Assembly (NCBI GenBank): GCA_009996615.1 | Contig: JAACZU010000001.1 | Coordinates: forward strand, 62,001-126,000 | Reading direction: 5' to 3' | DNA from: Rhodanobacteraceae bacterium | GTDB taxonomy: Bacteria > Pseudomonadota > Gammaproteobacteria > Xanthomonadales > Rhodanobacteraceae | Length of the DNA stretch: 64,000 nt | Part shown: positions 43,025-62,687 of the stretch, piece after piece | Position numbering within the stretch: the stretch's first letter is position 1 | Layout of the letters: every line of letters begins with the position of its first letter | The notes under the pieces: model-generated | Seen by the model: the letters and a program-made list of their open reading frames with translations, nothing else | Databases searched by the model: none | Told to the model about the DNA's origin: nothing | Translations under genes and position numbers: made by a program

Positions 43025-43720
43025 TCAAACCGCGGCCGCGGCCGCCGGCGCGACGATGCGGCCGTCGACGAGGCGGATCAGGCGGTCGGTGCTGGCCGCG
43101 AACTGCGCGTCGTGCGTGACGACCGCGACCGCGCGGCCGTGTTCGTGCGCCAGCCCCAGGATGATCGCCTGCACGTTGCGGCTCGATGCGCTGTCGAGGT
43201 TGCCGGTCGGCTCGTCGGCGAGGATCAGCGGCGGGTCGTTGGCGAGCGCACGCGCGATTGCCACGCGCTGGCTCTGGCCACCGGAGAGCTGGCGCGGCAA
43301 CTTGTCGCGCTGGTCGGCGATGCCGAGCGCGGCGAGCAGCGCATCGGCGCGCTGCTTCATCTCGGCCTCGCTCCAGCGCCCGAGGCGCCGCATCGGCAGC
43401 ATCACGTTCTCGCGCGCGCTGAACTCGGGCAGCAGGAAATGCGACTGGAACACGAAGCCGATCCGCTGCAGCCGCGCGTCGGCGCGTTCGCGTTCGCCGA
43501 AGCCGGCGGTGTCGAGCTCGTCCAGCCACACCGTGCCGCCGGTCGGGATGTCGAGCAGGCCGAGCAGGTACAACAGCGAGGACTTGCCCGAGCCCGACGG
43601 GCCGGTGATCGCGACGCATTCGCCGCGCGCGATCTCCAGGCTGACGTCGTCGACCAGCGTCACCGGAACTTCCGCCGCGAGCCGGCGCGTGAGGTGCTCG
43701 GCGCGCACCGCCGCGACCAT
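43025..43720 (-). CDS. ABC transporter ATP-binding protein (LolD/MacB/DevA type)
   Basis: A 231-residue ATPase: Walker A GPSGSGKSS, Q-loop FVFQSHFLLPEFSARENVML, signature LSGGQSQRVAIARALAND, Walker B LILADEPTGNLDS, and H-loop VVTHDAQ. The PTGNLD sequence and a single-ATPase/FtsX-permease pairing are typical of lipoprotein-, lipid- or drug-exporting systems. It follows the permease gene with a 1-base stop/start overlap (TGATG). It powers the HlyD/FtsX-type exporter encoded upstream. Confidence 0.93.
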   Translation of the reverse strand: MVAAVRAEHLTRRLAAEVPVTLVDDVSLEIARGECVAITGPSGSGKSSLLYLLGLLDIPTGGTVWLDELDTAGFGERERADARLQRIGFVFQSHFLLPEFSARENVMLPMRRLGRWSEAEMKQRADALLAALGIADQRDKLPRQLSGGQSQRVAIARALANDPPLILADEPTGNLDSASSRNVQAIILGLAHEHGRAVAVVTHDAQFAASTDRLIRLVDGRIVAPAAAAAV

Positions 43721-44967
43721 CAGGCGCCTCCCCGCAGCACGTCGACGGGCTCGACGCGCGCGGCGCGCCGCGCCGGCAGCAGCGCCGCGAACACCGAGGC
43801 GGCCATCGCCACGCCGGCGGCCAGCGCGAACTGCGGCCAGCCCCAGTCGATCGCGAGCGAGGTGAGGTCGGTGCTGCCGGGCAGGCGGAAGCGCAATCGC
43901 CCGAGCAGCACCATCAGCCCGCTGCCGAGCGCCAGCCCGAACAGGTCGCCGAGCAGCCCCATCAGCGCGCCCTGCAGCACGAAGATGCGCTCGACGTCGC
44001 GCGCGTGGAAGCCCATCGACTTCAGGATCGCGATGTCGCGCTGCTTCTCCATCACCACGGTCGAGATCACGTTGTAGATGCCGAACGCGGCCACCACCAG
44101 CACCGCGCCGACCACCGCGTACATGATGATCCGCCGCAGCAGCAGCGCGCTCATCAGGTCCTCGGACTGCTCCTGCCAAGAGATCGTCTTGTAGCCGATG
44201 TGGCGTTCGATCACGGCCGCCACGCTGCGCGCGAGGTCCGGATCGTCGAGCTTGATCAAGATGCTGTTGGCGCGATTGGGGCGGTCGAGCAGCGCCTGCA
44301 CGCGCTTGAGCGCGACGAACGCCTGCCCGGTATCCACGCTGGCGCGGCCGGTGTGGAACAGGCCGACGATCTTGAACACGCGGGTCTTCCCGGCGGTGCC
44401 GGCCACGGTCACGTTGCGCGACAGCGACAGGCTCATCACGCGCGCGATCTCGTCGCCGATGATGATGCCGTTCGGGTTGGCGATCAGGTCTGCGAGCGAG
44501 CCGGCCACCATGTAGTTGTCGATCGTCGACACTGTCGCGTATTCGGCCGCGACCACGCCGTTCAGCGTGATCGCGCGGTCCTTGCCGGCGAAGCTCACCA
44601 GCGCCTGGCCGGCCAGCACCGCGGAGGCGCGCAGGCCGGGCAGCGTGCGCAGGTACTGCAGGATCTGCGCGTAGCCGCGGATGCCGCGCGTCTCGGTTTC
44701 CGGCTTGACGTGGCGGATCTCGACCGCCCCGCCCGGATACGCCTGGCGCGCCGGCTGCACGGTCGGGTTGCGGAACTCGTCGACGATCGTGATGTGCGGC
44801 GAATTGTCGACCAGGCGCCGGATGAAGTCGTTCTCCGAGCCCTGCATCATGGCCGAGATCGACAGGAAGAACGACACGCCGAGCACGATGCCGAGCAGCG
44901 ACACGATGCTCTGGCGCCGGCGCGCGCGCAGGTGGCGCGAGGCGACCGCGGCGAGCAGGCCGATCAT
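43720..44967 (-). CDS. ABC transporter permease, FtsX/MacB (DevC) type
   Basis: A 415-residue permease. One membrane helix comes early (SIVSLLGIVLGVSFFLSIS), then a periplasmic domain of about 240 residues, then three helices at the C-terminus (AVVGAVLVVAAFGIYNVIST, MGLLGDLFGLALGSGLMVLL, FALAAGVAMAASVFAALLPA). This is the mechanotransmission architecture of FtsX/MacB/LolC. MEKQRDIAILKSMGF is a typical coupling-helix region. Start MIGLLAAVASRHLRARR overlaps the HlyD stop by 4 bases. Confidence 0.92.
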   Translation of the reverse strand: MIGLLAAVASRHLRARRRQSIVSLLGIVLGVSFFLSISAMMQGSENDFIRRLVDNSPHITIVDEFRNPTVQPARQAYPGGAVEIRHVKPETETRGIRGYAQILQYLRTLPGLRASAVLAGQALVSFAGKDRAITLNGVVAAEYATVSTIDNYMVAGSLADLIANPNGIIIGDEIARVMSLSLSRNVTVAGTAGKTRVFKIVGLFHTGRASVDTGQAFVALKRVQALLDRPNRANSILIKLDDPDLARSVAAVIERHIGYKTISWQEQSEDLMSALLLRRIIMYAVVGAVLVVAAFGIYNVISTVVMEKQRDIAILKSMGFHARDVERIFVLQGALMGLLGDLFGLALGSGLMVLLGRLRFRLPGSTDLTSLAIDWGWPQFALAAGVAMAASVFAALLPARRAARVEPVDVLRGGA

Positions 44968-46061
44968 GGCGAGGCTCCGGTCGGAAATGGCACCAGCTGC
45001 GCACGCACGCGCCGGCCGGCCTGCGCCCAGTCCGGCGGTTCGGCGACGACGCTGTCGTCGGCGCCGACGCCGTGCACGATCTCCACGCGCAGGTCGCCGT
45101 GCGCGCCGATCTCGACTGGCTGCGCTGCAAGCCGGCCATCGCGCACGCACCAGACGCGGCCCGCGACGACCGCGCTGGCCGGCAGCAGCAGCGCGTCGGG
45201 GTTCTCGCGCGTCACGATGTTCGTCTCGGCCGTCATGCCGGTCAGCAGCGGCACCGGCTCGCTGAAGCCGATGCGCACGCGATAGCTGCGCGCGGTCGGA
45301 TCGCCCTTCGGCGTGATGCTCTGCACGCGGCCGTGGAAGACGCGGCCGGGAAACGCGTCGGCACGGATCAGCACGGGCTGGCCCGGCGCGACGCGCGCGA
45401 TGTCCTCCTCGTCGACCTCGGCCGAGATCCGCGGCGGCGAATCGACCGCAACCCAGAACACGACCTGGTTCACCGCGATCAGCTCGCCGACCTCGCCGTC
45501 GCGGTGGATCACGGTGCCGTCGGCCGGCGCGAGCAGGCGCGCGTAACCCAGCTCGGCCGCCGCCTTCGCGCTGGCCGCGGCGGCCGCCTGCCAGTCCGTG
45601 CGCGCCTTGTCGTGGATCGCGCGCGCGATCAGGCCGCGCTTGAGCAGCGCGGCGTCGCGCTCGTAGTCGCTCTTCGCGAACGCCTCCTGCGAGCGCAGTT
45701 GCGCCAGCGCGTTAACGAGGTCGGTGTCCTCGAGCCGGCCAAGTTGCTGCCCCTTGTGCACGCGCTGCCCCTCGTCGGCGTCCAGTTCGACCAGCCGCCC
45801 GGGCAGGCGCGCGGCGATCGGCAGCATCACCGACGGTTCGACCGTGCCGGTCGCGTAGACCGCCTCGACGGCCGGGCCACGCACCGGATGCACGACCTCG
45901 ACCGCCGGCGGCAGCCACAGCCATGCACCGACGGCGGCGGCGACCATCACGGCGATCGCCAGCGTGATCCAGACGGAGCGGGGTGGCAGGCGCAAAGGCG
46001 GCTCAGATGAACGGATGGGCCGATCAAACCAGCGCCGCGCAATGAGCGGGTTGACCTGCAT
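44964..46061 (-). CDS. HlyD-family periplasmic adaptor of ABC exporter (DevB-like)
   Basis: A protein of up to 365 residues. It has one N-terminal membrane helix (VWITLAIAVMVAAAVGAWLW), then lipoyl/barrel-sandwich halves (PGRLVELDADEGQRVHKGQQ and LLAPADGTVIHRDGEVGELI) around a coiled-coil hairpin, and a C-terminal beta-barrel. It links the inner-membrane permease to an outer channel; no TolC gene is in the window. The ATG at 46061 lies inside the FNR-like palindrome 46051-46064. If that site is real, the true start is downstream, for example the TTG at 45995 just before the membrane helix. Confidence 0.9.
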   Translation of the reverse strand: MQVNPLIARRWFDRPIRSSEPPLRLPPRSVWITLAIAVMVAAAVGAWLWLPPAVEVVHPVRGPAVEAVYATGTVEPSVMLPIAARLPGRLVELDADEGQRVHKGQQLGRLEDTDLVNALAQLRSQEAFAKSDYERDAALLKRGLIARAIHDKARTDWQAAAAASAKAAAELGYARLLAPADGTVIHRDGEVGELIAVNQVVFWVAVDSPPRISAEVDEEDIARVAPGQPVLIRADAFPGRVFHGRVQSITPKGDPTARSYRVRIGFSEPVPLLTGMTAETNIVTRENPDALLLPASAVVAGRVWCVRDGRLAAQPVEIGAHGDLRVEIVHGVGADDSVVAEPPDWAQAGRRVRAQLVPFPTGASP

Positions 46062-46064
46062 CAA
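46051..46064 (-). promoter_or_regulatory. FNR/ANR-like site upstream of the HlyD-type exporter genes
   Basis: TTGACCTGCATCAA (minus strand TTGATGCAGGTCAA) fits TTGAT-N4-ATCAA with one base off. TTTGAT on the minus strand at 46028-46023 is centred about 32 bp downstream, which would place the site at about -41.5. Confidence 0.65.
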
Positions 46065-46266: not shown

Positions 46267-49080
46267 TCAGCCTTCGGAAAGCACGAAACCCGCTTCGCGC
46301 GCATCCGGCTCGCCGCTGTGCTCGAGCAGGAACGCGCGCGCGTCGGCGGACAGGCGCAGCGCGTCGTGCCAGGTGTCGAGGTCGGCGTGTGTCGGTATCG
46401 CCGGGCCGAACGTGGCCGCGAGCGGCACGTGGCGCGGGAACCAGTCGCCGTCGCGCAGCGCCGCGCGTGTGCCGCGCAGCGCGACCGGCACCACCGCCCG
46501 GCCGGCCTGGTGCGCGGCCATGAACGCGCCGAGATGGAACGGCAGCAGACCCGGCATGCGCCGTAGCGTTCCTTCGGGGAAGAACAGCACGTCGCCGCCG
46601 GCGGCCGCGCGCTGCACCGCCGCGATCGCGCGTTCGCTGTCGAAGCGGTCGACGAACACCGCGCCGAGCCGGCGCAGCAGCAGGCCGAGCAGCGCGAATC
46701 GCGCGAGTTCCGCCTTGGCCATGAACGCGACCGGGCGCGGCAGCACGCGCACCAGCAGCAGCGCGTCGAGGTAGCTGGCGTGATTGGCGACGAAGATGCA
46801 CGGGCCGGCCGGCAACGCGGCGCGTTCGATCGCCAGCGGCACCGCCAGGCCACGGCGCAGCAGTTCGAGCAGGCCGCGCACCGCGCGCCAGCGCGCGCCA
46901 AGCGTGGGCAGCCCCAGCACCGCGAGCGCGGCCGGCAGCGCGAGCAGGCCGAGCAGCGTCCACGCCCAGCCGGCGAACGCGGCCGCGCGCAGCCGCTGCA
47001 GCCGGTGCCGCGCGTTCTCGAGTGCGCCGCGCAGCAGCACGCGCGGCAGGTGGTAGCGGTCCGGCGCGCCGAGGCGGCCGCCTTCCCACGCCTCGCGGCA
47101 GGCGGCGCGGCGCAGCTTGCCGCTGGAGGTCTTCAGCACGGTGCCCGGCGCGGCCAGCACGACCTCGTCGGCCGGCGCGCCGGCGCTGGCGTCGCAGACC
47201 GCGTTGATGCGCGCGGCCAGCGCGGCGCGCGCGGCCGCATCGGCCAGGCGCGTCTCGGCGACCACGACCAGCCGCTCGGTGCCTTCGCGCGGCGCGTGGC
47301 TGCCGAACACCGCGACGCGGCCGCGGCGCACGCCGGCGAGGTCGCCGACTGCGGCCTCGATGGCCTGCGGGTGGATGTGGCGGCCGGCGCGGATGATCAG
47401 GTCCTTGACGCGGCCGGTCAGGTACAGCTCGCCGGCGTGCACGAAGCCGAGGTCGCCGGTGTCGAGCCAGGCGCCGTGGCGCAGCCGCGCGCTGGCCGCG
47501 TCGGCGTGGTAGTAGCCCAGGCACGCCGACGGCCCCTGGAACTGCACGCCGCCCTGGCGACCGTCCGGCAGCTCGTGGTCGCCGGCGTCGACGATGCGCA
47601 CCTGGTAGCCGGGCAGCGGGGCGCCGCAAGAGACGAATTCGAGTGCGGCCTGCGTGCCGCTAGCCGGTGCGGCCTCGCCGCGCTCGAGGAAGCGGTCGCG
47701 CGCGACCGCCAGCACGCGCGGGCCGCGGTCGAGCGGCGGGAACGTCAGCGCAAGCGCGGATTCGGCCAGCCCGTAGACCGGGAACAGCGCCTCGCGGCGC
47801 AGGCCGTACCGCGCCATGCGGGCGTGGAAGCCCACCAGCGTCTGCGCAAAGATCGGCTCCGCGCCACAGAACGCGAGCCGCAGGCGATCCAGCCGCAGGC
47901 CGTCGAGGTCGGCGTCGGCGATGCGGTGCGTGCACAGCTCGAACGCGAAGTTCGGCGCCGCCGACATCGTCGCCTCGTAGCGGTGGATCGCCCACAGCCA
48001 GCGCTGCGGGCGCAGCAGGAACGTCTGCGGCGGCATCAGCACCAGCGGCGTGCCGAAATACAGGCTGCCGAGCCAGGCGCCGATCAAGCCCATGTCGTGG
48101 TACAGCGGCAGCCAGCTGACGAAGCGGTCGCCGGCCTCGATGCGCACCGCCGCGCCCATCGCGCGGATGTTTGCCAAGAGGTGCGCATGCGTCAGCATCA
48201 CGCCTTTCGGATCCGCGGTGCTGCCGGAGGTGTACTGCAGCAGCGCAAGCGCGTCGGCGGCGAGCACGGCCGGCTCGGCGAGCGCGTCGCCGCCATGCGT
48301 GAGTTCGGCCACGGTGACGACGTGCTCGACCGGGCCGGTCAGGCCACGCACGAGGTGGCGGTGCGCGTGCACCGCCGGGCTGGTGACCAGCACGCGCGCC
48401 TCGCAATTGCGCAGGATGCCGGCCTGGCGGCGCCAGAACTCGCCCAGCTCGCCCGGCCGCAGCGGCGGATACAGCGGCACCGGCACGCCGCCGCCGAGCA
48501 GCACGCCAAAGAACGCGGCGAGGAAGTCCGGATGCGTCGGCTGCATCAGCGCGACCGGCGCACCGGGCGTGATTCCGAGCCGCTGCAGGCCGCCGGCGAT
48601 CGCCAGCGCGGCGGCCCGCAGCGCGCCGAACGTGAGTTCGTGGCCGTCGGCCTCGCCACCCTCGAAGCGCACGTGCAATTGCGCCGGCCGGCGTGTTGCA
48701 TGCCAGGCCAGCACGTCGGCGAGCGTGTGCGCTTCGAGCGGCGGATCGAGCGTCATGGGGCCGGGTACGGCGGGCGGCGCGAGCGTGATCGGCGCCTCGC
48801 GCGGGCGCGCTTGCGTGAATGCGCGCAGCAGGTCGGCCGGCGTCTCCGCTGCCAGACCTTGCTGCTCGGGCAGCAGCGCGTGGAAGCGGTTCTCCAGCCG
48901 CGCCAGCAGCTCGATGCGGGTCAGGCTGTCGAGGCCGAGGTCGCGGCCGAGGCGCGCATCGAGCCGCACCGCCGTGGGCGGCGCATCAGGATGCAGCTCC
49001 GCCAGCAGGCGCGCGATCTCGGCGAGCAGCATCTGCTCGGGAGCATCGCCTGCTGCGTCCGGACGGGACGGTTGCGCCAT
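46267..49080 (-). CDS. ACP - acyl-AMP ligase (FAAL-like) - PlsC acyltransferase fusion
   Basis: A 937-residue three-domain protein. Residues about 15-95 are an acyl carrier domain (LGRDLGLDSLTRIELLARLE, Ser 52 for phosphopantetheine). Residues about 115-640 are an adenylating domain closest in look to fatty acyl-AMP ligases (LLQYTSGSTADPKGVMLTHA, SWLPLYHDMGLIGAW, SAAPNFAFELC, FPVYGLAESALAL, WLDTGDLGF). Residues about 730-900 are a membrane-linked PlsC domain (FVANHASYLDALLL, FFPEGTLRRMPGLLPF). It could activate a fatty acid, load it on its own ACP and pass it to a glycerolipid-like acceptor. Downstream on the same strand is a DevBCA-like exporter. Product unknown. Confidence 0.9.
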   Translation of the reverse strand: MAQPSRPDAAGDAPEQMLLAEIARLLAELHPDAPPTAVRLDARLGRDLGLDSLTRIELLARLENRFHALLPEQQGLAAETPADLLRAFTQARPREAPITLAPPAVPGPMTLDPPLEAHTLADVLAWHATRRPAQLHVRFEGGEADGHELTFGALRAAALAIAGGLQRLGITPGAPVALMQPTHPDFLAAFFGVLLGGGVPVPLYPPLRPGELGEFWRRQAGILRNCEARVLVTSPAVHAHRHLVRGLTGPVEHVVTVAELTHGGDALAEPAVLAADALALLQYTSGSTADPKGVMLTHAHLLANIRAMGAAVRIEAGDRFVSWLPLYHDMGLIGAWLGSLYFGTPLVLMPPQTFLLRPQRWLWAIHRYEATMSAAPNFAFELCTHRIADADLDGLRLDRLRLAFCGAEPIFAQTLVGFHARMARYGLRREALFPVYGLAESALALTFPPLDRGPRVLAVARDRFLERGEAAPASGTQAALEFVSCGAPLPGYQVRIVDAGDHELPDGRQGGVQFQGPSACLGYYHADAASARLRHGAWLDTGDLGFVHAGELYLTGRVKDLIIRAGRHIHPQAIEAAVGDLAGVRRGRVAVFGSHAPREGTERLVVVAETRLADAAARAALAARINAVCDASAGAPADEVVLAAPGTVLKTSSGKLRRAACREAWEGGRLGAPDRYHLPRVLLRGALENARHRLQRLRAAAFAGWAWTLLGLLALPAALAVLGLPTLGARWRAVRGLLELLRRGLAVPLAIERAALPAGPCIFVANHASYLDALLLVRVLPRPVAFMAKAELARFALLGLLLRRLGAVFVDRFDSERAIAAVQRAAAGGDVLFFPEGTLRRMPGLLPFHLGAFMAAHQAGRAVVPVALRGTRAALRDGDWFPRHVPLAATFGPAIPTHADLDTWHDALRLSADARAFLLEHSGEPDAREAGFVLSEG

Positions 49081-49148: not shown

Positions 49149-49188
49149 GCCCTCCCCTTCAAGGGGAGGGTTGGGTGGGGATGGTGAT
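49149..49188. repeat. CTCCCCTTCAAGGGGAGGG repeat
   Basis: Same orientation as the 7.85 and 42.9 kb copies, with the TTGGGTGGGGATGGTG tail. As at 7.9 kb, it is followed within 30 bp by the GCATCCCTGC-type repeat, so the two elements travel as a composite. Confidence 0.9.
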
Positions 49189-49666: not shown

Positions 49667-49680
49667 TTGATCCAGATCAT
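49667..49680 (+). promoter_or_regulatory. FNR/ANR-like site upstream of mgtA
   Basis: TTGATCCAGATCAT matches TTGAT-N4-ATCAA except the last base. GATGCT at 49702-49707 is at -10 distance from it, though weak. The mgtA start follows at 49723. Confidence 0.55.
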
Positions 49681-49722
49681 GCGCACGCGCCCGACACCGG
49701 CGATGCTCGCGCGGTGCAAACG

Positions 49723-52287
49723 ATGCCGGGCCAGCAGGAGGCGGTTGCGGGGGAGGCGGCGTCCGCTGCGCCGTGGTCGCTCGCGCATGCGCCGGTCGAG
49801 GCGCTGCTCGCCGCGCTGGCCAGCACGCCGGACGGGCTGACTGGCGCCGAGGCGGCGCGCCGGCTCGGCGTGTATGGGCCGAACCAGCCGGCGCCACGCC
49901 AGCGTGGCGCCGGCATCGTCGCGCTGCTGTCGTTCTTCGCCAATCCGCTGGTGCTGATACTGCTGCTGTCGGCGGGCGTGTCGGCGTTCCTGCACGACGT
50001 CGTTGGTTCGACCATCATCGTCGTGATCGTGCTGCTCAGCGTGGTCGTGAACTTCCTGCAGAGCTACCGCTCGCAGCGCGCCGCCGACCGCCTGCGCGAG
50101 GAGGTCGCGCCGACCGCGACGGCCTTGCGCGACGGCCACTGGAGCGAGGTCGCGCGGCGCACGCTGGTGCCCGGCGACGTGATCCGCCTGTCCACCGGCG
50201 ACCAGGTGCCGGCCGATGCGCGCCTGCTCGAAAGCCATGACCTGCACGTGCAGCAGGCCGCGCTGACCGGCGAGTCGGCACCGGCCGAGAAGCAGGCGGT
50301 CGCGCAGCCCGGGCCGCAGGCCGAGCTCGCCGGCGCCGAGCACCTGGTGTTCCTCGGCACCTCGGTCGTGGCCGGTACCGCGACCGCGGTGGTGCTGGCG
50401 ACCGGCCGCGCCACCGCGTTCGGCGACATCGCCGCGTCCTTGCGCGAGCGCCCGCCGGAGACCGAGTTCGAGCGCGGCCTGGCCGGCTTCGCGCAGCTGA
50501 TCATGCGCACGGTCGTGTTCCTCGTGCTGTTCACGCTGCTGGCCAGCGTCGTGCTCGGGCGCAATCCGCTCGAGTCGCTGCTGTTCGCGGTCGCGCTCGC
50601 TGTCGGGCTGACGCCGGAGTTCCTGCCGATGATCACGACGGTCACGCTCGCGCAGGGCGCGGTGCGCATGGCGCGGCGCCGCGTCATCGTCAAGCACCTC
50701 GCCGCGATCGAGGACTTCGGCAGCATGAACGTGCTGCTCAGCGACAAGACCGGCACGCTGACCACCGCGCAGACCGTGCTCGAAGCGGCGTTGCGGCCCG
50801 ACGGCGCGGCCGGTCCAGAACCGCTGCGCCTGGCCCGCCTGAACAGCCGCTTCCAGACCGGCCTGCGCAGCCCGCTCGACGATGCCATCCTGGCGCAGCC
50901 GGATGCCGATGCCGATGCCACGTGGCGCAAGGTCGACGAAGTGCCGTTCGACTTCGAGCGGCGCCGGCTGTCGGTCGTGGTCGAAGATGGGCGTCGGCGC
51001 CTGCTGGTCGTCAAGGGCGCGCCGGAATCGGTGCTGGCCGTGTGCCGGCACTGCGACAGCGGGGCAGGGGTGGGCGAACTCGACGCGGTCGCGCAGGCGC
51101 GCGCGCTGGAGCTGGTCGAGGCGGCCGGCAACCGCGGCTCGCGCGTGCTCGCGCTCGCCTGGCGCGAGGTGCCGGTGCAGGCGCGCTACGGCGCCGCCGA
51201 CGAGGCCGGCCTGGTGCTGGCCGGCTTCCTCGTGTTCGCCGATCCGGTCATCGCCGGCGTGGCCGAGACGCTGCGCGCGCTGCGCCGCGACGGCCTGCAC
51301 CTGAAGATCCTCAGCGGCGACAACGAGCGCGTGGTGCGCCACGTCTGCGCCGAGGTCGGCCTGGACGTGCACCGGCTCGTGCTCGGCGCGCAGCTGGAGC
51401 CGCTCGGTGATGCCGCGCTCGGCGTGCTGGCCGAGCGCACCACGGTGTTCGCGCGCGTGTCGCCGGCGCAGAAGCACCGCATCGTGCTGGCGCTGAAGCG
51501 GCGCGGCCACGTCGTCGGCTTCCTCGGCGACGGCATCAACGATGCGCCGTCGCTGCACGCGGCCGACGTCGGCATCTCGGTCATGAACGCGGTCGACGTG
51601 GCCAAGGACGCGGCCGACATCATCCTGCGTGAACGCGACCTGCGCGTGCTGCACGACGGCGTGATCGAGGGGCGCAAGGCGTTCGCGAACGTCATGAAGT
51701 ACCTGCTGATGGGCACCAGCAGCAACTTCGGCAACATGTTCAGCATGGCCGGCGGCGTGCTGTTCCTGCCGTTCCTGCCGATGCTGTCGATGCAGATCCT
51801 GCTCAACAACTTCCTCTACGACCTGGCCCAGGTCACGATTCCGACCGACAACGTCGATGCCGCGTGGGTGCGCCGGCCGCAGCGCTGGAACGTGCGCCAG
51901 ATCCGCAACTTCATGCTGCTGATCGGGCCGATCAGCTCGCTCTACGACTTCCTCACGTTCTGGGTGTTGCTGCGCCTGTTCGACGCGTCCGAAGCGCTGT
52001 TCCACACCGGCTGGTTCGTCGAGTCGCTGGCGACGCAGACGCTGGTGTTGTTCGTGATCCGCACCGGCGACGTGCCATGGCGCAGCCGCCCCAGCCTGCC
52101 GCTGGTGCTGACCACGCTGGCGGTGGTCGCGTTCGGCTGCCTGCTGCCGGCCACGCCGCTGGCGCCACTGCTCGGCTTCGTGCCGCTGCCGGGGCGGTTC
52201 TTCGTGTTCCTGCTGGTCGCGACGCTGACCTACCTGGCGCTGGTGGAGTGGGCCAAGCGGCGCGTGTCGACGTTGCTGCGGCGGTGA
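49723..52287 (+). CDS. mgtA: Magnesium-transporting P-type ATPase (MgtA-like, P3B)
   Basis: An 854-residue P-ATPase. It has TGES in the actuator domain (near 182), TPEFLPMITTVTLAQGAV in helix 4, phosphorylation motif LLSDKTGTLTT (Asp near 341), KGAPESVL in the nucleotide domain, GDGINDAPSLHAADVG (near 602), and C-terminal SSNFGNMFSMAGGVLFLPFL with LPMLSMQILLNNFLYDLAQV. The last two blocks are specific to MgtA/MgtB magnesium importers. The first 70 residues differ from E. coli MgtA. No mgtL-like leader was recognised. The start at MPGQQEAVAG follows the FNR-like site; GTG 49714 is an alternative. Confidence 0.92.
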   Translation: MPGQQEAVAGEAASAAPWSLAHAPVEALLAALASTPDGLTGAEAARRLGVYGPNQPAPRQRGAGIVALLSFFANPLVLILLLSAGVSAFLHDVVGSTIIVVIVLLSVVVNFLQSYRSQRAADRLREEVAPTATALRDGHWSEVARRTLVPGDVIRLSTGDQVPADARLLESHDLHVQQAALTGESAPAEKQAVAQPGPQAELAGAEHLVFLGTSVVAGTATAVVLATGRATAFGDIAASLRERPPETEFERGLAGFAQLIMRTVVFLVLFTLLASVVLGRNPLESLLFAVALAVGLTPEFLPMITTVTLAQGAVRMARRRVIVKHLAAIEDFGSMNVLLSDKTGTLTTAQTVLEAALRPDGAAGPEPLRLARLNSRFQTGLRSPLDDAILAQPDADADATWRKVDEVPFDFERRRLSVVVEDGRRRLLVVKGAPESVLAVCRHCDSGAGVGELDAVAQARALELVEAAGNRGSRVLALAWREVPVQARYGAADEAGLVLAGFLVFADPVIAGVAETLRALRRDGLHLKILSGDNERVVRHVCAEVGLDVHRLVLGAQLEPLGDAALGVLAERTTVFARVSPAQKHRIVLALKRRGHVVGFLGDGINDAPSLHAADVGISVMNAVDVAKDAADIILRERDLRVLHDGVIEGRKAFANVMKYLLMGTSSNFGNMFSMAGGVLFLPFLPMLSMQILLNNFLYDLAQVTIPTDNVDAAWVRRPQRWNVRQIRNFMLLIGPISSLYDFLTFWVLLRLFDASEALFHTGWFVESLATQTLVLFVIRTGDVPWRSRPSLPLVLTTLAVVAFGCLLPATPLAPLLGFVPLPGRFFVFLLVATLTYLALVEWAKRRVSTLLRR

Positions 52288-53126: not shown

Positions 53127-53132
53127 TATAAA
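53127..53132 (+). promoter_or_regulatory. -10 box of the phosphoketolase gene
   Basis: TATAAA in an AT-rich patch (GCGTTTATAAAG), about 29 bp centre to centre from the FNR-like palindrome. No -35 box is seen, as expected for an activator-dependent promoter. Confidence 0.65.
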
Positions 53133-53166
53133 GTCGGCCATCGCCCGTCTTCGACGAGGAACGCAG

Positions 53167-55793: not shown

Positions 55794-57245
55794 ATGCCAC
55801 TCGATCGGCGCGAATTCCTCGGCCTGGCCGGGCTGGCCGCGCTCGCCGCTGCAAATCCGCGCGCGGTCGCGGCGGCCGCACCGCCGGCCGACTACACGCT
55901 GCGGATCGCGCGCAGCCTGGTCGAGCTCGCGCCGGACCACATCGTCTCGACCACCACCTACAACGGCCAATTCCCCGGGCCGCTGCTGCGCCTGCGCGAA
56001 GGCCGGCGCGTCCTCGTCGACGTCCACAACGACACCGACGTGCCCGAGCAGCTGCACTGGCACGGCCAGACCGTGCCGGTCGACGTTGACGGCGCCGGCG
56101 AGGAGGGCACGCCGTTCATCCCGCCGCGCGGCATGCGCCGGCTCGCGTTCACGCCGGGCCCGGCCGGCCTGCGCTTCTACCACACGCACGTGCTGGCTGG
56201 CAGCGACCTCACGCGGGGCCAGTACAGCGGCCAGGTCGGGCCGGTCTACATCGAGCCGCGCCACGAGCCGGGCGCGTACGACCGCGAGGTGTTCCTCGTG
56301 CTGAAGGAGTTCGATCCGTTCTTCAGCCAGGGCGGCGACATGGCGATGGACGTGCTGCAACCGCGCGAGCGCGACGCGCAGCTGGAACAGCGTGGCGAGG
56401 CGGCGATGCACGCCTCGCTCGCCGCCGGCGCGCCACACGGCTACGAGGTCGGCTACCAGGCGTTCGCGATCAACGGGCGCATGCTCGGCCACGGCGAGCC
56501 GATTCGCGTGAAGGCGGGCGAGCGCGTGCTGTTGCATGTCGTCAATGGCAGCGCGACCGAGATCCGCAGCCTCGCCCTGCCGGGCCACGTGTTCCAGGTC
56601 GTGGCGCTCGACGGCAACCCGGTGCCGCGGCCGGTCGAGGTGCCGGTGCTGTGGCTGGGCACCGCCGAACGCATCAGCGCGATCGTCGAGATGAGGCATC
56701 CGGGCGTGTGGATCCTCGGCGACCTCGACGACGACGACCGTGCACGCGGCATGGGTATCGTGGTCGAATACGCCGGCCAGCATGGCAAGCCGCGCTGGGA
56801 CAAACCCGCACCGTTCGGCTGGGACTACCGGCGCTTCGCCAAGGGCGACGTCGCCGTGGCCGACGTGGATGACGTGATCGAGATGACCTTCGCCAAGCAG
56901 AACGCCGCCGAACACGGCTTCAACCGCTGGACCATCAACGGCGTCGCGTTCGACATGCGCGCGATGCAGCCGCGGTTCCGGCTGCACCACGGGCGCCGCT
57001 ACCGGCTGCGCCTGCACAACGCCAGCGACGACATCCATCCGATGCACCTGCACCGCCACACGTTCGAGCTCCAGCGCATCGCCGGACAGCCGGTCGGCGG
57101 CCTGCGCAAGGACGTCGCGATGCTCGGCGGCTACCAGTCGATGGAGGTCGACTTCACCGCCGACCAGCCGGGCCTGTCGCTGTTCCACTGCCACATGCAG
57201 TTGCACATGGACTTCGGTTTCATGGCGCTGTTCGAGTGCGCATGA
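55794..57245 (+). CDS. Multicopper oxidase with Tat signal
   Basis: A 483-residue protein. The N-terminal DRREFLGLAGLAALAA is a Tat signal. The copper motifs are complete: LHWHGQTV (near 86), FYHTHVLAG, HPMHLHRHTFEL (near 412) and FHCHMQLHMDFGFM (near 465), with the type 1 Cys and axial Met in the last. It oxidises a substrate (metal ion, phenol or similar) with reduction of O2 to water in the periplasm. TATGAT at 55738-55743 is a possible -10 box. Its stop overlaps the chromate transporter ATG (ATGA), so the two are coupled. Confidence 0.93.
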   Translation: MPLDRREFLGLAGLAALAAANPRAVAAAAPPADYTLRIARSLVELAPDHIVSTTTYNGQFPGPLLRLREGRRVLVDVHNDTDVPEQLHWHGQTVPVDVDGAGEEGTPFIPPRGMRRLAFTPGPAGLRFYHTHVLAGSDLTRGQYSGQVGPVYIEPRHEPGAYDREVFLVLKEFDPFFSQGGDMAMDVLQPRERDAQLEQRGEAAMHASLAAGAPHGYEVGYQAFAINGRMLGHGEPIRVKAGERVLLHVVNGSATEIRSLALPGHVFQVVALDGNPVPRPVEVPVLWLGTAERISAIVEMRHPGVWILGDLDDDDRARGMGIVVEYAGQHGKPRWDKPAPFGWDYRRFAKGDVAVADVDDVIEMTFAKQNAAEHGFNRWTINGVAFDMRAMQPRFRLHHGRRYRLRLHNASDDIHPMHLHRHTFELQRIAGQPVGGLRKDVAMLGGYQSMEVDFTADQPGLSLFHCHMQLHMDFGFMALFECA

Positions 57246-58444
57246 CGGCCGCGATCTCGCGCCCGCCGGGTCGCGCGATCGAGGTCGGCCTGGCGTTCCT
57301 GCGCCTGGGCCTGACCTCGTTCGGTGGCCCAATCGCGCATCTGGGCTACTTCCACCGCGAGTTCGTGCAGCGCCGCGCGTGGCTCGACGAGGCGCACTTC
57401 GCGCAACTGCTCGCGCTGTGCCAGTTCCTGCCGGGGCCGGCGAGCAGCCAGCTCGGCTTTTCGATCGGCCTGCTGCGTGCCGGCTGGGCCGGCGCGCTGG
57501 CCGCGTTCGTCGGCTTCACGCTGCCGTCGGCGTTGCTGCTGTTCGTGTTCGCCGCGCTCAGCGACCGCCTCGGCGGACCGTGGGGGCAGGGCGCCATCCA
57601 CGGCCTCAAGCTCGTCGCGGTCGCGGTGGTCGCACAGGGCGTGCTCGGCATGGCGCGCAGCCTCACGCCGGACGCACCGCGCGCGCTGCTGGCCGCGCTC
57701 GCCGCCGGCGTGATCGCGGCCTTCGGCCAGGCGTGGCTGCAACTCGTCGTCGTCGCCGCCGGCGCCGCGCTCGGGCCGTGGCTGTGCCGCGGCATCGGCG
57801 CGCAGCCGGGCGGCACGTTCGCGTTGCACTACGGCCGGCGCACCGGCGCCGTCCTGCTCGGCGTGTTCGCCGCGCTGCTCGCGCTCGCGCTGGCACCGCT
57901 GGCGTGGCCGCCGCTCGGCGCGGTCGCGGGTGCGTTCTACCGCGCCGGCGCGCTCGTGTTCGGCGGCGGCCACGTCGTGCTGCCGCTGCTCGAACAGGCG
58001 GTGGTCGCGCCGGGCTGGGTCGATCGCGACACGTTCCTCGCCGGCTACGGCGCCGCGCAGGCGGTGCCCGGGCCGATGTTCACGTTCGCCGCATTCCTCG
58101 GCGAACGCCTGCAGGGCGGCCACGGCGGCGTCGCCGGCGCGCTGGTCGGCCTGCTCGCGGTGTTCGCGCCGGGCCTGCTGCTGGTCGCCGGCGCGCTGCC
58201 GTTCTGGCGCGCACTGGCCACGCGCGCCGGCGCCGCGCGCGTGCTCGCCGGTGTCAACGCAAGCGTGGTCGGCCTGCTCGCGGCGGCCCTGTACGACCCG
58301 GTCTGGACCAGCGCGGTCCACGACGGCGCCGACTTCGCGATCGCGCTGGTCGCGTTCACGCTGCTGGTCGCGGCGCGATGGCCCGCGCTCGCAGTGGTCG
58401 CCTGGTGCGTCGTCGCCGCGATGCTTCGCGCGGCGGTGGGCTGA
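57242..58444 (+). CDS. chrA: Chromate transporter (ChrA family, two CHR domains)
   Basis: A 400-residue membrane protein of about ten helices with two homologous halves. The first has LTSFGGPIAHLGYFHREFV and CQFLPGPASSQLGFSIG; the second has LVFGGGHVVLPLLEQAVV and GYGAAQAVPGPMFTFAAFLG. This long-chain ChrA form exports chromate in Pseudomonas and Cupriavidus; other CHR proteins have unknown anions. It is translationally coupled to the multicopper oxidase. Confidence 0.93.
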   Translation: MTAAISRPPGRAIEVGLAFLRLGLTSFGGPIAHLGYFHREFVQRRAWLDEAHFAQLLALCQFLPGPASSQLGFSIGLLRAGWAGALAAFVGFTLPSALLLFVFAALSDRLGGPWGQGAIHGLKLVAVAVVAQGVLGMARSLTPDAPRALLAALAAGVIAAFGQAWLQLVVVAAGAALGPWLCRGIGAQPGGTFALHYGRRTGAVLLGVFAALLALALAPLAWPPLGAVAGAFYRAGALVFGGGHVVLPLLEQAVVAPGWVDRDTFLAGYGAAQAVPGPMFTFAAFLGERLQGGHGGVAGALVGLLAVFAPGLLLVAGALPFWRALATRAGAARVLAGVNASVVGLLAAALYDPVWTSAVHDGADFAIALVAFTLLVAARWPALAVVAWCVVAAMLRAAVG

Positions 58445-58587: not shown

Positions 58588-58601
58588 TTGATGCAGGTCA
58601 A
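58588..58601 (+). promoter_or_regulatory. FNR/ANR-like site upstream of the ABC-2 exporter genes
   Basis: TTGATGCAGGTCAA, identical to the minus-strand reading of the site at 46051-46064; the shared context is GGCTTGATGCAGGTCAACCC with one difference. GATAGT at 58623-58628 is centred 31 bp downstream, giving about -41.5. Confidence 0.7.
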
Positions 58602-58654
58602 CCCGTCCGCGGCGGGCGCGGCGATAGTCGGCTGGCGCCGTCGCGGAGTGCAGC

Positions 58655-59467
58655 GTGCAGGAACCATCCGGGCCTTGGGCGATCGAGACCGAGCGGCTGA
58701 CGCGCCGGTTCGGCGATCTCGTCGCGGTCGACCGCGTGGACCTGCGCATCGCGCGCGGCGCGCTATTCGGCCTGCTCGGCCCGAACGGCGCCGGCAAGAC
58801 CACGCTGGTGAAGATGCTGGCGACGCTGCTGCGCCCGACCTCCGGCAGCGCGCGCGTCGCCGGCCACGACATCCTGCGCGAGGCGGCCGCGGTGCGCCGC
58901 GCGATCGGCTACGTGCCGCAGATGCTGTCGGCCGACGGTGCGCTGACCGCGCGCGAGAACCTGCGGCTGTCGGCTGGCCTGTACGGCATCGCGCGCGCCG
59001 AACGCAACGCGCGCATCGCCGAGGCACTCGCGTTCATGGGCCTGAGCGAGGCCGCCGACCGCCTCGTGCGCACCTACTCGGGCGGCATGATCCGCCGCCT
59101 CGAACTGGCGCAGGCGATGCTGCACCGGCCGCAGGTGCTGTTCCTCGACGAGCCGACGATCGGCCTCGACCCGGTCGCGCGGCGCACGGTGTGGGACCGC
59201 CTGCGCGAGATGCGCGCCAGCTACGGCATGAGCGTCTTGCTGACCACGCACGACATGGAGGAGGCCGACCAGCTCTGCGACGAACTGGCGATCCTGCACC
59301 TGGGCAGCGTCGGCGTGGTCGGCAAGCCCGCCGAGCTGAAGGCCGCGCTCGGCCCGCAGGCGACGCTGGACGACGTGTTCATCCAGTACAGCGGCGCGCA
59401 CCTGGAGGAGGGCGGCCACTACCGCGACGTGCGCCAGGCGCGTTCGACCGCGAAGCGGCTGGGCTGA
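58655..59467 (+). CDS. ABC transporter ATP-binding protein (DrrA/NodI type)
   Basis: A 270-residue ATPase: Walker A LLGPNGAGKTTLVKMLATLL, signature YSGGMIRRLELAQAMLHRP, Walker B VLFLDEPTIGLDPVARRTVW and H-loop LLTTHDMEEADQLCDEL. It matches the DrrA/ABC-2 exporter group. It starts with GTG at 58655, with GGAG at good spacing. It is 2 bp upstream of its permease gene. The shared promoter carries an FNR-like site. Confidence 0.93.
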   Translation: MQEPSGPWAIETERLTRRFGDLVAVDRVDLRIARGALFGLLGPNGAGKTTLVKMLATLLRPTSGSARVAGHDILREAAAVRRAIGYVPQMLSADGALTARENLRLSAGLYGIARAERNARIAEALAFMGLSEAADRLVRTYSGGMIRRLELAQAMLHRPQVLFLDEPTIGLDPVARRTVWDRLREMRASYGMSVLLTTHDMEEADQLCDELAILHLGSVGVVGKPAELKAALGPQATLDDVFIQYSGAHLEEGGHYRDVRQARSTAKRLG

Positions 59468-59469
59468 CG

Positions 59470-60240
59470 ATGCTCGCGTTCCTCGGCCAGAGCGCGGCGG
59501 TCGCCACGGCGGAGCTGCGCAAGCTGCTGCGCGATCCGACCGAGATGTTCTCGCGCGCGATCCAGCCGGTGCTGTGGCTCACCGTGTTCGGCCAGGTGTT
59601 CGCCGGTGTGCACGGCATCCCGACCGGCGGCGTGCCTTACCTCGACTTCATGGCGCCGGGCATCCTCGCCCAGAGCGTGCTGTTCAGCGCGATCTTCTAC
59701 GGCATCGCGGTGATCTGGGAGCGCGACCTCGGCATCGTGCACAAGCTGCTCGTCTCGCCAGCCAGCCGCGCCGCGCTGGTGCTCGGCAAGGCCGCCTCGG
59801 CCGGGTTGCGCGGCGTGGTGCAGGCGGTGATCGTCTACGCGATCGCCTCGCTGCTGCACATCGCGCTGCGCTGGGAGCCGCTGGCAATCCTCGGCGTGCT
59901 GTGCGGCGTGCTGCTCGGCGCCGCCACGTTCGCGACGTTCTCGCTGATCATGGCCTGCATCGTGAAGACGCGCGAGCGCTTCATGGGCATCGGCCAGGTG
60001 CTGACGATGCCCTTGTTCTTCGCCAGCAACGCGATCTATCCGCTCGACCTGATGCCGCCGTGGCTGCACGCGATCGCGCTGGTCAACCCGCTGACCTACC
60101 TGGTCGACGCGTTGCGCACGCAGATGATCGTGACCGGCACGGCCACCCACGGCTTCCTCGTCGACCTGCTCGTGCTCGGGCTTGTGTTCGTGCTGTTCGT
60201 GGCGATCGCGGCGCGGCTGTATCCGGCGCTGGCGCGATAG
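59470..60240 (+). CDS. ABC-2 type transporter permease
   Basis: A 256-residue permease with six hydrophobic segments and the ABC-2 signature region VNPLTYLVDALRTQMI near the C-terminus. IVHKLLVSPASRAALVLGKA and FFASNAIYPLDLMPPWLHAI are typical of DrrB/NodJ-like proteins. Substrates in the family are drugs, lipids or polysaccharide precursors. It forms a two-gene exporter with the ATPase upstream. Confidence 0.92.
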   Translation: MLAFLGQSAAVATAELRKLLRDPTEMFSRAIQPVLWLTVFGQVFAGVHGIPTGGVPYLDFMAPGILAQSVLFSAIFYGIAVIWERDLGIVHKLLVSPASRAALVLGKAASAGLRGVVQAVIVYAIASLLHIALRWEPLAILGVLCGVLLGAATFATFSLIMACIVKTRERFMGIGQVLTMPLFFASNAIYPLDLMPPWLHAIALVNPLTYLVDALRTQMIVTGTATHGFLVDLLVLGLVFVLFVAIAARLYPALAR

Positions 60241-60375: not shown

Positions 60376-60389
60376 TTGATCTGGCTCAA
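60376..60389 (+). promoter_or_regulatory. FNR/ANR-like site upstream of the DUF3300 gene
   Basis: TTGATCTGGCTCAA. GATGAT at 60411-60416 is centred 31 bp downstream, again giving a site at about -41.5. Confidence 0.65.
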
Positions 60390-60447
60390 CCGGCGCCGCG
60401 GCGGTGGCGGGATGATGCGTGGACACTGTTCCGCGCCGGGTGCTGCC

Positions 60448-61668
60448 ATGAAACGGGCCGCAAGAATCCTGATGGTGCTGGCGTTGTGGGTGACGCTGGG
60501 CGCAGCTGCGCAGGACGTACCGCCGGCACCCGCGGCGACGGACGGCAATCCGGCCTTCACGCAGCAGGAACTGGACCAGATGCTGGCGCCGATTGCGCTG
60601 TATCCGGACGCACTGCTGTCGCAGGTGCTGATGGCCGCGACTTATCCGCTCGAGGTGGTGGAAGCGGCGCGCTGGTCGCGCGCGCATCCGGACCTCAGCG
60701 GCGATGCGGCCGTGCAGGCGGTCGCCGACCAGGCCTGGGACCCGAGCGTGAAATCGCTGCTCGCGTTCCCGCAACTGCTGCAGACGATGGACGAGAAGCT
60801 CGACTGGACCGAGCGTCTCGGCGATGCGTTCCTGTCGCAGCAGGCGCAGGTCATGGACACGGCGCAGGAACTGCGCCGCAGGGCCGAGGCCGCCGGCAAC
60901 CTGCAGAGCAGCGGGCGGATCGAGGTGCAGCAGGAAGGCGGCAACATCGACATCGTGCCGACGGATCCGTTGGTCGTCTACGTGCCGTACTACGATCCGT
61001 CCCTCGTCTACGGCGACTGGTGGTGGCCCGAACCGCCGGTGTTCTGGGCGCCGTGGCCCGGCTACGCCTGGTATGGCGATTTCGCCTGGGGCGTGGGCAT
61101 CGGCATTGGCCTGGACTTCTTCTTTGGCCGCTGCGATTGGCCCTACCACCGCGTGTTCATCGACGACCGCCGCCACTGGTTCGCGCACGAGCCGCCCGAG
61201 CGCCACGAGTGGGAGCACAACGCCGCGCACCGCCTCGGCGTGCCGTATCGCACGCCGGCGCTGAACCGGCAGTTCGGTCGCGCTGGCGCCTCGCGCCGCG
61301 CGTTCGACGCCTACCGTGGCTGGGCGACGCCGCGCCCCGAGCCGACGCCGCCGGTGCGTGCGCCGCAGCCGCAGCGCGGGGCGGTGCCGACGATCCGTGC
61401 GCCGCGGCCGCAGCGCGGGGCGGTGCCGCCGATCCGAGCGCCGCAGCCGCCGCGCGAGGGAATCCCCACGCTGCGCACGCCGCAGATGGCTGCACCGCCG
61501 CGCATGGCGCCGCAGCGTGGCGTCGAGGCGCAGCCGCAGTTCGCCGCGCCACGCGGCCACGCGTTCGAGGGCATCGGACGCGGCCCCGAGGTGCGCGACT
61601 TCAGCGCGCGCGGCCATCAGAGCTTCCAGAACGCGCCGGCGCGCAGCGCCCCGCCGCCGCGTCGCTGA
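60448..61668 (+). CDS. DUF3300 domain protein, exported
   Basis: A 406-residue protein with a signal peptide (ILMVLALWVTLGAAAQ). Residues about 30-200 are DUF3300: QQELDQMLAPIALYPDALLS, MAATYPLEVVEAARW, DPSVKSLLAFP. A Trp/Tyr-rich centre (YGDWWWPEPPVFWAPWPG) and a Pro/Arg-rich tail follow. The tail has three 13-residue repeats of the RAPQPQRGAVP type. DUF3300 genes often stand next to DUF2950 genes, as here. Function unknown; an envelope location is likely. The promoter carries an FNR-like site. Confidence 0.88.
   Translation: MKRAARILMVLALWVTLGAAAQDVPPAPAATDGNPAFTQQELDQMLAPIALYPDALLSQVLMAATYPLEVVEAARWSRAHPDLSGDAAVQAVADQAWDPSVKSLLAFPQLLQTMDEKLDWTERLGDAFLSQQAQVMDTAQELRRRAEAAGNLQSSGRIEVQQEGGNIDIVPTDPLVVYVPYYDPSLVYGDWWWPEPPVFWAPWPGYAWYGDFAWGVGIGIGLDFFFGRCDWPYHRVFIDDRRHWFAHEPPERHEWEHNAAHRLGVPYRTPALNRQFGRAGASRRAFDAYRGWATPRPEPTPPVRAPQPQRGAVPTIRAPRPQRGAVPPIRAPQPPREGIPTLRTPQMAAPPRMAPQRGVEAQPQFAAPRGHAFEGIGRGPEVRDFSARGHQSFQNAPARSAPPPRR
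61353..61469 (+). repeat. 39-bp tandem repeat in the DUF3300 gene
   Basis: Three 39-bp units (61353-61391, 61392-61430, 61431-61469) encode [V/I]RAPxPQRGAVPx; the third is more diverged and a partial fourth may follow. The Pro/Arg-rich tail can change length by slippage. Confidence 0.75.
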
Positions 61669-61724
61669 TCGGCTCGCACGCGCGCGCGTCGTTGCGCATG
61701 AATCGACTCGACGAGGACCCTCTC

Positions 61725-62687
61725 ATGACAGGCCAACGCTGGTTCGCTCATGCTTTGTCGATCACGCTTGGTGCGCTCGGCGGGCTGTACGTCGTCATCG
61801 CCGCGGCGGCCGATGCGCCCTCGCAGCAGCGCGCGTTCCCGAGCGCCGAGGCCGCCGCCACGGCGCTGGTGCAGGCGGTGAAGGCGAACGACCAGGCGGC
61901 CCTGTCGGCGATGTTCGGTCCCGACGGCAGCAAGCTGCTGGATTCGGGCGATCCGGTCGCCGATGCGCACGGCCGCGAGGCGTTCGCCAAGGCTTGGGAC
62001 GAAGCGAACAAGCTGGTGCGCGCCGGCGATGCGCGCGTCACGCTGGTGGTCGGCAAGGACGAGTGGCCGCTGCCGATCCCGCTGGTGCGGCAGGGCGATC
62101 GCTGGACGTTCGACACGCGCGCGGGCGAGGACGAGATCCTCAAGCGCCGCATCGGCCGCAACGAGCTCGATGCGATGAAGGTCTGCCTGGCGATCGTCGA
62201 GGCGCAACGCGAGTACGCCGCGCACCACCTCGACCACGACGGCGTGCCGGTCTACGCGGCGCGCTTCGTCAGCCGGCCCGGCCACCACGACGGCCTGTAC
62301 TGGCCGGTCGCCCAAGGCCCGAGCAGCCCGCTCGGCGCACTGCTCGCGGCCGCCGCCGACGAGGGCTACGTCGAGCAGGGCGCGCTGCGGCGCGAGCCGT
62401 ACCACGGCTACTACTACCGCATCCTCACCCGGCAGGGGCAGGACGCGGCCGGCGGTGCGCGCGACTACCTGGTCAAGGGCAAGCTGATCGGCGGCTTCGC
62501 CGTGCTCGCCTATCCGGCGCGCTGGGGCGCGTCCGGCCTGACCACGTTCATCGCCAGCGACGACGGCACGATCTACGCCCGGGATTTCGGCGCCGACACC
62601 CAGGCCACCGCGCAGGCGGTGACCGAGTTCAACCCCGATAGTGGCTGGAAGCGCGAGCAGGTGGCGCAGGCGAAGCCGGCGGATTGA
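61725..62687 (+). CDS. DUF2950 domain protein, exported
   Basis: A 320-residue protein with signal peptide (ALSITLGALGGLYVVIAAAA) and DUF2950 throughout: FPSAEAAATALVQAVKANDQ, GPDGSKLLDSGDPVAD, YAAHHLDHDGVPVYAARF, HGYYYRILTRQGQDAAGGAR and GGFAVLAYPARWGASGLTTF. No function is known. It follows the DUF3300 gene by 56 bp on the same strand, so they likely form an operon under the FNR-like promoter. An in-frame ATG at 61698 is an alternative start. Confidence 0.88.
   Translation: MTGQRWFAHALSITLGALGGLYVVIAAAADAPSQQRAFPSAEAAATALVQAVKANDQAALSAMFGPDGSKLLDSGDPVADAHGREAFAKAWDEANKLVRAGDARVTLVVGKDEWPLPIPLVRQGDRWTFDTRAGEDEILKRRIGRNELDAMKVCLAIVEAQREYAAHHLDHDGVPVYAARFVSRPGHHDGLYWPVAQGPSSPLGALLAAAADEGYVEQGALRREPYHGYYYRILTRQGQDAAGGARDYLVKGKLIGGFAVLAYPARWGASGLTTFIASDDGTIYARDFGADTQATAQAVTEFNPDSGWKREQVAQAKPAD

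Follow-up and report, generated by a model that had tools for sequence, protein, structure and literature searches.

A 64,000-nucleotide stretch of the genome of a Rhodanobacteraceae bacterium (GCA_009996615.1, contig JAACZU010000001.1, here contig C1, positions 62,001 to 126,000), which we call the window, carries a series of transport and metabolic genes preceded by short palindromes of the form TTGA-N6-TCAA. These palindromes are putative binding sites (boxes) for CRP/FNR-family activators, and most lie close to a gene start with a -10-like hexamer between. The assembly comprises 3.91 Mb in 40 contigs, and positions without a contig name are those of the window. We note that gene functions are putative, as they are predicted from domain and family matches. 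The features are as follows.

43015–43028, strand-neutral: exact palindrome TTGAGTCCGGTCAA, at the 3' end of the ABC-ATPase gene and upstream of no gene start
43025–45995, minus strand: exporter operon with ABC ATPase, MacB/FtsX permease and HlyD adaptor (domain matches)
46023–46028, minus strand: -10-like TTTGAT of the exporter, 22 bp after the box
46051–46064, minus strand: FNR/FixK-type box of the MacB/HlyD-type exporter operon, exact match, read as TTGATGCAGGTCAA
46267–49032, minus strand: AMP-binding enzyme with PP-binding and acyltransferase domains, fatty acyl-AMP ligase-like, below NCBIfam cut-offs
49667–49680, plus strand: one-mismatch box TTGATCCAGATCAT of the P-type ATPase
49702–49707, plus strand: -10-like GATGCT of the P-type ATPase, 21 bp after the box
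49723–52287, plus strand: Mg-type (MgtA-like) P-type ATPase, TIGR01524 above cut-off
52560–53036, minus strand: flavodoxin-like protein (domain match)
53067–53072, minus strand: -10 hexamer TAGCGT toward flavodoxin, 21 bp after the box
53094–53107, strand-neutral: single palindrome, exact match, common to two divergent class II-like promoters
53129–53134, plus strand: -10 hexamer TAAAGT toward phosphoketolase, 21 bp after the box
53167–55575, plus strand: phosphoketolase (domain/family match)
55794–57245, plus strand: multicopper oxidase (domain match)
57242–58444, plus strand: chromate transporter family protein (domain match)
58588–58601, plus strand: box TTGATGCAGGTCAA of the ABC-2 exporter, exact match
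58623–58628, plus strand: -10-like GATAGT of the ABC-2 exporter, 21 bp after the box
58655–60240, plus strand: ABC-2 exporter, ATPase and permease (domain matches)
60376–60389, plus strand: box TTGATCTGGCTCAA of DUF3300-DUF2950, exact match
60411–60416, plus strand: -10-like GATGAT of DUF3300-DUF2950, 21 bp after the box
60472–62687, plus strand: DUF3300 protein and DUF2950 protein (domain matches)
63817–63830, plus strand: one-mismatch box TTGATCGACATCAG, about 420 bp upstream of a gene for an AMP-binding enzyme, which is followed by a 2-oxoacid dehydrogenase E1

The four exact palindromes named in the original prediction, a model's reading of the letters of this stretch, were all recovered (46051, 53094, 58588 and 60376), as was a fifth site at 49667 with a mismatch at one end. 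The estimate of about 0.1 chance matches that accompanied them was sound, because the computed expectation is 0.13 in 64 kb. The statement that the window holds no other exact match was wrong, as a further one occupies 43015–43028; we consider this palindrome probably not a promoter element. The resulting count of five exact matches compared with 0.13 expected was reached in none of 100 dinucleotide shuffles. In our own gene calls, each of the five named sites falls between genes and precedes a called start. Distances from box to start were 55 bp for the exporter, 42 bp for the P-type ATPase, 53 bp for the ABC-2 exporter, 82 bp for DUF3300, and 59 bp and 57 bp for phosphoketolase and flavodoxin, the last two measured from their common site at 53094.

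Across the genome, 36 exact TTGA-N6-TCAA palindromes were present compared with 17 matches to the pattern read backwards, and the longer form TTGAT-N4-ATCAA showed a larger difference (11 exact matches versus none reversed, and 75 versus six when up to one mismatch was allowed). The genome-wide check for enrichment that had been proposed, made here with the exact pattern, found the sites concentrated in this region, with 21 of the 36 within C1:105015–258110. All 21 are intergenic in our gene calls, where the intergenic share of C1 is 11.1%, and for all except C1:105015 (window position 43015) a gene start follows within 260 bp, so that palindromes of this type precede genes above chance. They form two blocks, one at 105–128 kb, which includes the window's sites, and a larger one that begins 88 kb further on, at 211–261 kb. 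With up to one mismatch, the longer form occurred 23 times in the two blocks, each time between genes, versus three times in the remaining 406 kb of C1, never between genes; we note that the block limits were drawn after the sites were seen. The proposal of an oxygen-responsive island was supported as a reading, but the window contains only the smaller of two blocks. The AMP-binding enzyme gene that follows TTGATCGACATCAG also has a closer, exact box 130 bp upstream, at C1:126109, which is 109 bp beyond the window end. We also considered whether base composition marks a recently acquired island. G+C content in 10-kb steps ranged from 0.686 to 0.729 over C1:90–270 kb with no step at the blocks, and composition therefore gives recent transfer no support.

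Exact sites outside C1 provide positive controls. Eight of these 15 sites are 34–93 bp upstream of a gene, and the genes include ccoN, hemN, ubiU and fabA, all above NCBIfam cut-offs. The others are PhaC-like and OmpW-like genes, both below those cut-offs, and genes for an ODP-type metallo-beta-lactamase-fold protein and a GYD-domain protein. In the sections of a study of alphaproteobacterial regulons drawn on here (PMC2908626), the predicted FNR set includes cbb3 subunit I, oxygen-independent coproporphyrinogen oxidase and OmpW, and the DNR set includes a U32 peptidase.

The original prediction had placed a -10-like hexamer about 29–32 bp from each window box, and this was borne out: hexamers follow each box by 21–22 bp, or about 31 bp from centre to centre. 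Scores of the hexamers in the six window site-directions ranged from 2.36 to 3.31, with a mean of 2.82. The 3945 control positions, taken ahead of other C1 genes, averaged 1.10; they are many per gene and hence non-independent. None of 20,000 resamplings of six control positions reached the window mean. Among 34 site-gene pairs on C1, which derive from 21 exact and four one-mismatch sites and are non-independent, as one site may serve two directions, TAnnnT followed the box at 21 bp in eight cases and at 22 bp in three, while every other gap from 5 to 49 bp together gave two matches. With a gap of 21–22 bp, the box is centred at about -41.5, as in class II promoters. The box and -10 hexamer occurred together 11 times in the genome (two of these on one palindrome), including 10 times on C1, and not once in the reversed control.

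At 53094, a strict -10 hexamer is found at 21 bp on both sides of one palindrome, toward flavodoxin and toward phosphoketolase (53067–53134). A second palindrome with a -10 hexamer on both sides was observed in genome G018 (C17:195625–195692). This shared arrangement involves one of 21 palindromes on C1, which is not above expectation, and we did not count it as special because the single-side rate would give as many.

The larger block on C1 contains genes from diverse stress and repair families, including universal stress proteins, Hsp20, an FtsH-type protease, a phasin, a nitroreductase, dodecin, a ribosome-hibernation-type protein, RtcB with archease, polymerase X and CBS proteins. It also carries regulators of its own, namely a cluster-less FNR-type regulator, an OmpR-type response regulator and a PAS kinase. 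A P-type ATPase with a C-terminal hemerythrin domain is also encoded in this block, at C1:232774–235080 (L032:6774–9077). A 460-residue protein at C1:230606–231988 (L032:4609–5988) had no Pfam match at 1e-3 and has a CxxCH near its N-terminus, recognized by eye; the exact box at C1:232045 is 56 bp away from its gene. A fusion of phosphoribosyltransferase and alpha/beta hydrolase is present at C1:241529–242932 (L032:15532–16932), and a comparable fusion belongs to the mycobacterial DosR regulon. The RtcB RNA ligase and archease genes occupy C1:250361–252212 (L033:4364–6212), and archease is preceded by a box at a distance of 56 bp.

Boxes recurred upstream of orthologs in related bacteria for some of the window genes. 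We searched 41 genomes with four window proteins, blind to site content, and inspected up to 400 bp upstream of each match. The P-type ATPase had a box at four of five orthologs (62%–100% identity) compared with none of 19 paralogs (44%–48%). In our own genome this is the one-mismatch site; exact boxes were found at three of the four orthologs in other genomes, and G008 had no box. The exporter adaptor had a box at both loci retrieved (E ≤ 1e-40), its own and that of G020, where TACGGT follows 21 bp on. Phosphoketolase was boxed in both Dyella loci that reach the gene, in a site-biased set of regions. In the same set of regions, boxes precede flavodoxin and a homolog of the AMP-binding enzyme at C1:126253 in G016, and homologs of universal stress protein, GNAT, Hsp20, FtsH, dodecin, PolX and CBS genes in several genomes. 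The AMP-binding enzyme at 46267–49032 has no box within 260 bp in this genome; its G016 ortholog has one 43 bp upstream. Promoters with both box and -10 hexamer were clustered, with 56 of 88 having a neighbor within 20 kb across 18 genomes versus 5.5 expected if sites were placed at random with contig ends ignored. The 88 were counted after merging pairs on one palindrome, with one G023 match missing from the count.

The genome encodes candidate regulators for these boxes, including proteins with the FNR recognition helix, on whose presence the original prediction depended. Seven genes contain a CRP/FNR domain, and four of the products carry the E-xx-SR recognition helix; of the remaining three, labeled by eye, two presumably have a GGDEF or EAL-like part and one we take to be Clp/CRP-like. 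Two of the four helix-bearing proteins (C10:33123 and C13:46142) have CX2CX5C and a further cysteine in their sequences, as in Fe-S-type FNR with four cysteines; the C10 protein, the one scanned, scored 217.8 with the NCBIfam Fnr model, just under the cut-off of 228. The other two, encoded on C5 and at C1:244836–245555 inside the larger block, have the helix without the N-terminal cysteine cluster. The C1 protein, here P0002, has the helix E-T-V-S-R. Among proteins of solved structure, its best matches are FNR-type regulators (4.5e-35) and FixK2 (3.7e-17), and it falls below the NCBIfam cut-offs for FixK (81 bits of 300) and Fnr (137.5 of 228). A cluster-less FNR-type regulator with the FNR helix, as P0002 is, would be expected in a FixLJ-FixK system. 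Orthologs (E ≤ 1e-50) were found in 32 of 299 genomes of the order and 18 of 85 genera, and the named genomes with related loci are three Dyella species and a Rhodanobacteraceae metagenome-assembled genome.

The window palindromes are real and far above chance, and their sequence and placement suggest that they are very probably functional FNR/ANR/FixK boxes. We consider it highly likely, judging from sequence, that the window genes belong to a larger low-oxygen survival regulon under CRP/FNR-family activators of the FNR/ANR/FixK type. Such activators would bind the palindromes, and a dimer positioned about 41 bp upstream of the transcription start would contact RNA polymerase in the class II manner. 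Falling oxygen would turn the activator or activators on and thereby switch on the boxed genes, with the window units forming the smaller of two blocks of one C1 regulon. The oxygen response in this model is suggested by the motif together with gene content. Induced functions could include export, carbon flow through phosphoketolase, phasin-linked storage, repair of protein and RNA, ribosome protection and universal stress proteins. The acting protein may be either of the two four-cysteine FNR proteins, which would respond to oxygen itself, or one without the cluster that works in the fashion of FixK.

Several observations weigh against this reading. The strict TAnnnT hexamer was missing at 21–22 bp in 23 of the 34 C1 pairs, and within the window it occurred at 53094 only. 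Five of the 15 exact sites outside C1 are inside genes, and two have no gene start within 260 bp. Conservation was uneven across the units that the original prediction had grouped together. The exporter and P-type ATPase kept the box at two of two loci and four of five orthologs, respectively, and phosphoketolase was supported in part: it was boxed at only two of nine close loci (our genome and G016) and at one of five distant loci (<30% identity), counts that leave out two fragments, L156 and L159. Even with the two boxed loci in Dyella added to these two of nine close loci, the link between phosphoketolase and the box is not universal. DUF3300 was boxed within 260 bp in one of eight loci, that of our own genome, and the other seven yielded one palindrome, 343 bp from the match, so DUF3300-DUF2950 is unsupported as a conserved regulon member. 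The ABC-2 exporter likewise lacked support from conservation, as no boxed counterpart was seen in the fetched regions of relatives, although no genome-wide search was made. These regions were themselves biased, having been chosen partly for the regulator or for promoters with box and -10 hexamer. Clustering was absent or weak in some genomes (G005, none of three promoters; G014 and G017, none of two each; G006, two of seven), and no clustered neighbors were found in G004, G005, G007, G014, G017, G021 and G024.

Sites of FNR, FixK and DNR are nearly identical in the portions of PMC2908626 used here. The three share one box, and the acting regulator therefore cannot be named from the DNA. We consider it slightly less than an even chance that the four-cysteine FNR/ANR proteins are the main users of the boxes, and that the cluster-less regulator acts elsewhere or on few genes. 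Beyond their cysteines and helix, these proteins are encoded next to boxed genes, one between ccoN and the OmpW-like gene and the other close to hemN. In addition, G016, G018 and G022 have promoter clusters without a P0002 match above 44% identity, which argues against P0002 as a single master regulator, and the G022 cluster includes a four-cysteine FNR gene. However, the larger block encodes its own regulator with the FNR helix, which also lies amid boxed genes in G008, G020 and two Dyella species, and the clusters of G016 and G018 carry other cluster-less FNR-type genes (ETISR or ETVSR).

A cascade resembling FixLJ-K, from PAS kinase to OmpR-type regulator to cluster-less regulator acting on the boxes, is less likely, though the gene neighborhoods point in this direction. 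Across 34 regulator loci, a kinase gene related to that of G020 lay within the 1.5-kb flank of the regulator in 29, on the opposite strand in 28 and the same strand in one, and the opposite-strand kinases are convergent with the regulator, with the kinase C-terminal part nearest. In five of 11 loci, the 300 bp that precede the response-regulator gene contain a palindrome. The kinase of our genome has PAS, GAF, HisKA, HATPase and receiver domains, and FixL was the second-best match to its PAS domain (2.4e-17), after another histidine kinase (1.5e-18). A histidine aligns with the residue we take to be the heme-ligand His of FixL, but the position presumed to correspond to the distal Arg of FixL is Met. 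Kinases of relatives kept the His in 11 of 11 cases and, judged by eye, had Tyr, Phe or Gln at the Arg position in nine; the G027 and G038 kinases have a different loop at this position, and their alignment there is uncertain. The response regulator consists of Response_reg and Trans_reg_C domains, which makes it OmpR-type, unlike the LuxR-type FixJ, and rules out FixLJ as a name for the pair. Moreover, in our genome the kinase gene is not adjacent to the regulator, lies 3 kb from that of the response regulator, and encodes a protein 34%–40% identical to the regulator-adjacent kinases of relatives. The regulator helix reads ETVSR or ETVTR in 31 of the 34 loci and ETVVR or ETVAR in three, so that the Ser is replaced by Thr, Val or Ala in some orthologs; a Cys motif was found in one of the 34 (N-terminus and unbroken upstream frame). 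In G013 the 47-kb contig stretch with the regulator had no exact palindrome and the cluster was on another contig, and most of the G015 promoter cluster was likewise on another contig than the regulator. Given these cases and the clusters of G016, G018 and G022, boxes and P0002 do not strictly travel together.

A signal of nitric oxide or redox state rather than oxygen, as for DNR, seems improbable. The shared box and the two helix-bearing regulators without a cysteine cluster would allow it, but ccoN, hemN, ubiU and fabA are among the targets, and no denitrification gene appeared in the scanned set, which is smaller than the whole genome. Chance or an unrelated palindrome without regulatory role is highly improbable: although 43015 and the five within-gene sites elsewhere look like chance matches, the window and genome counts, reversed control and intergenic placement rule out chance for the palindromes overall, and the -10 spacing, positive controls and recurrence in relatives point the same way.

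Returning to the low-oxygen regulon, a more speculative extension is that Lysobacterales hold a conserved oxygen or redox module that differs in parts from FixLJ-K. In this tentative scheme, a PAS-GAF hybrid kinase and an OmpR-type response regulator would act with a convergently encoded, cluster-less FNR-type activator of a low-oxygen dormancy island, and one palindrome would serve as the class II site of the divergent flavodoxin and phosphoketolase promoters. If so, the two promoters on that palindrome would be mutually exclusive.

Two further features of the window were observed. A methionine sulfoxide reductase pair (SelR/MsrB and PMSR/MsrA domains) is encoded at 41414–42666, close to the boxed units but not among them. 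The other feature is a 35-base sequence that contains an inverted repeat and looks like a dispersed repeat element; it has five exact copies, compared with none expected in shuffles.

7852–7886, plus strand: 35-base repeat copy
21315–21349, minus strand: 35-base repeat copy
22705–22739, minus strand: 35-base repeat copy
42908–42942, plus strand: 35-base repeat copy
49150–49184, plus strand: 35-base repeat copy

The gene set resembles known low-oxygen regulons. According to the parts of the reports consulted, low oxygen induces the 50 genes of the lxa locus in Burkholderia cenocepacia, of which six encode universal stress proteins and others an alpha-crystallin and a flavin/nitro-reduction protein; the locus has been linked to the Anr-like regulator BCAM0049 (PMC6127331, PMC9733578, PMC9104464). 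The larger block here shares with lxa (also covered in PMC3759415), at the level of family classes, universal stress proteins, Hsp20, a nitroreductase and other stress genes, along with an Anr-like regulator. In contrast to lxa, which is induced by low oxygen, the island described here is known from sequence, belongs to another bacterial order, is divided into two blocks, and has its own PAS kinase and OmpR-type and cluster-less FNR-type regulators. The predicted FixK core regulon of alphaproteobacteria, as far as the sections used here describe it, includes phosphoketolase, Hsp20, HlyD, an ABC permease and ATPase, a CBS protein, cytochrome c, a zinc alcohol dehydrogenase, FixL and FixJ, and several members, phosphoketolase included, reportedly depend on FixK in experiments (PMC2908626, Dufour et al. 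2010). It has the same box as the island here and many gene classes in common, but our genome is gammaproteobacterial, its genes are clustered in islands, and its response regulator is OmpR-type. In addition, alphaproteobacterial UspA, U32 peptidase, hemN and cbb3 genes are placed in FNR or DNR sets in the same sections (PMC2908626). Compared with FNR/ANR class II regulons, the TTGAT-N4-ATCAA box, -10 spacing and targets (ccoN, hemN, OmpW-like and U32/ubiU) are alike, but most sites here are packed into one stretch of one contig. The mycobacterial DosR regulon also contains a nitroreductase and a P-type ATPase, but neither its regulator, the NarL-type DosR, nor its box is related to those here. 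The regulon's universal stress proteins and alpha-crystallin, noted in the portion of PMC6127331 drawn on, are classes that occur here as well.

The presence of phosphoketolase within a FixK regulon is thus already known from the FixK work (PMC2908626). A less familiar finding is that many Lysobacterales encode a cluster-less FNR-type regulator next to a PAS kinase in convergent orientation, and no description of such a regulon in this family was found in the open-licence papers searched. Together, the analyses present, from sequence and with controls, an FNR/FixK-type regulon in Rhodanobacteraceae that is organized as gene islands with recurring members. A gene set known from lxa in Burkholderia and from FixK regulons in alphaproteobacteria is thereby extended to a further order, and a candidate regulator module emerges that could be tested in cultured Dyella.

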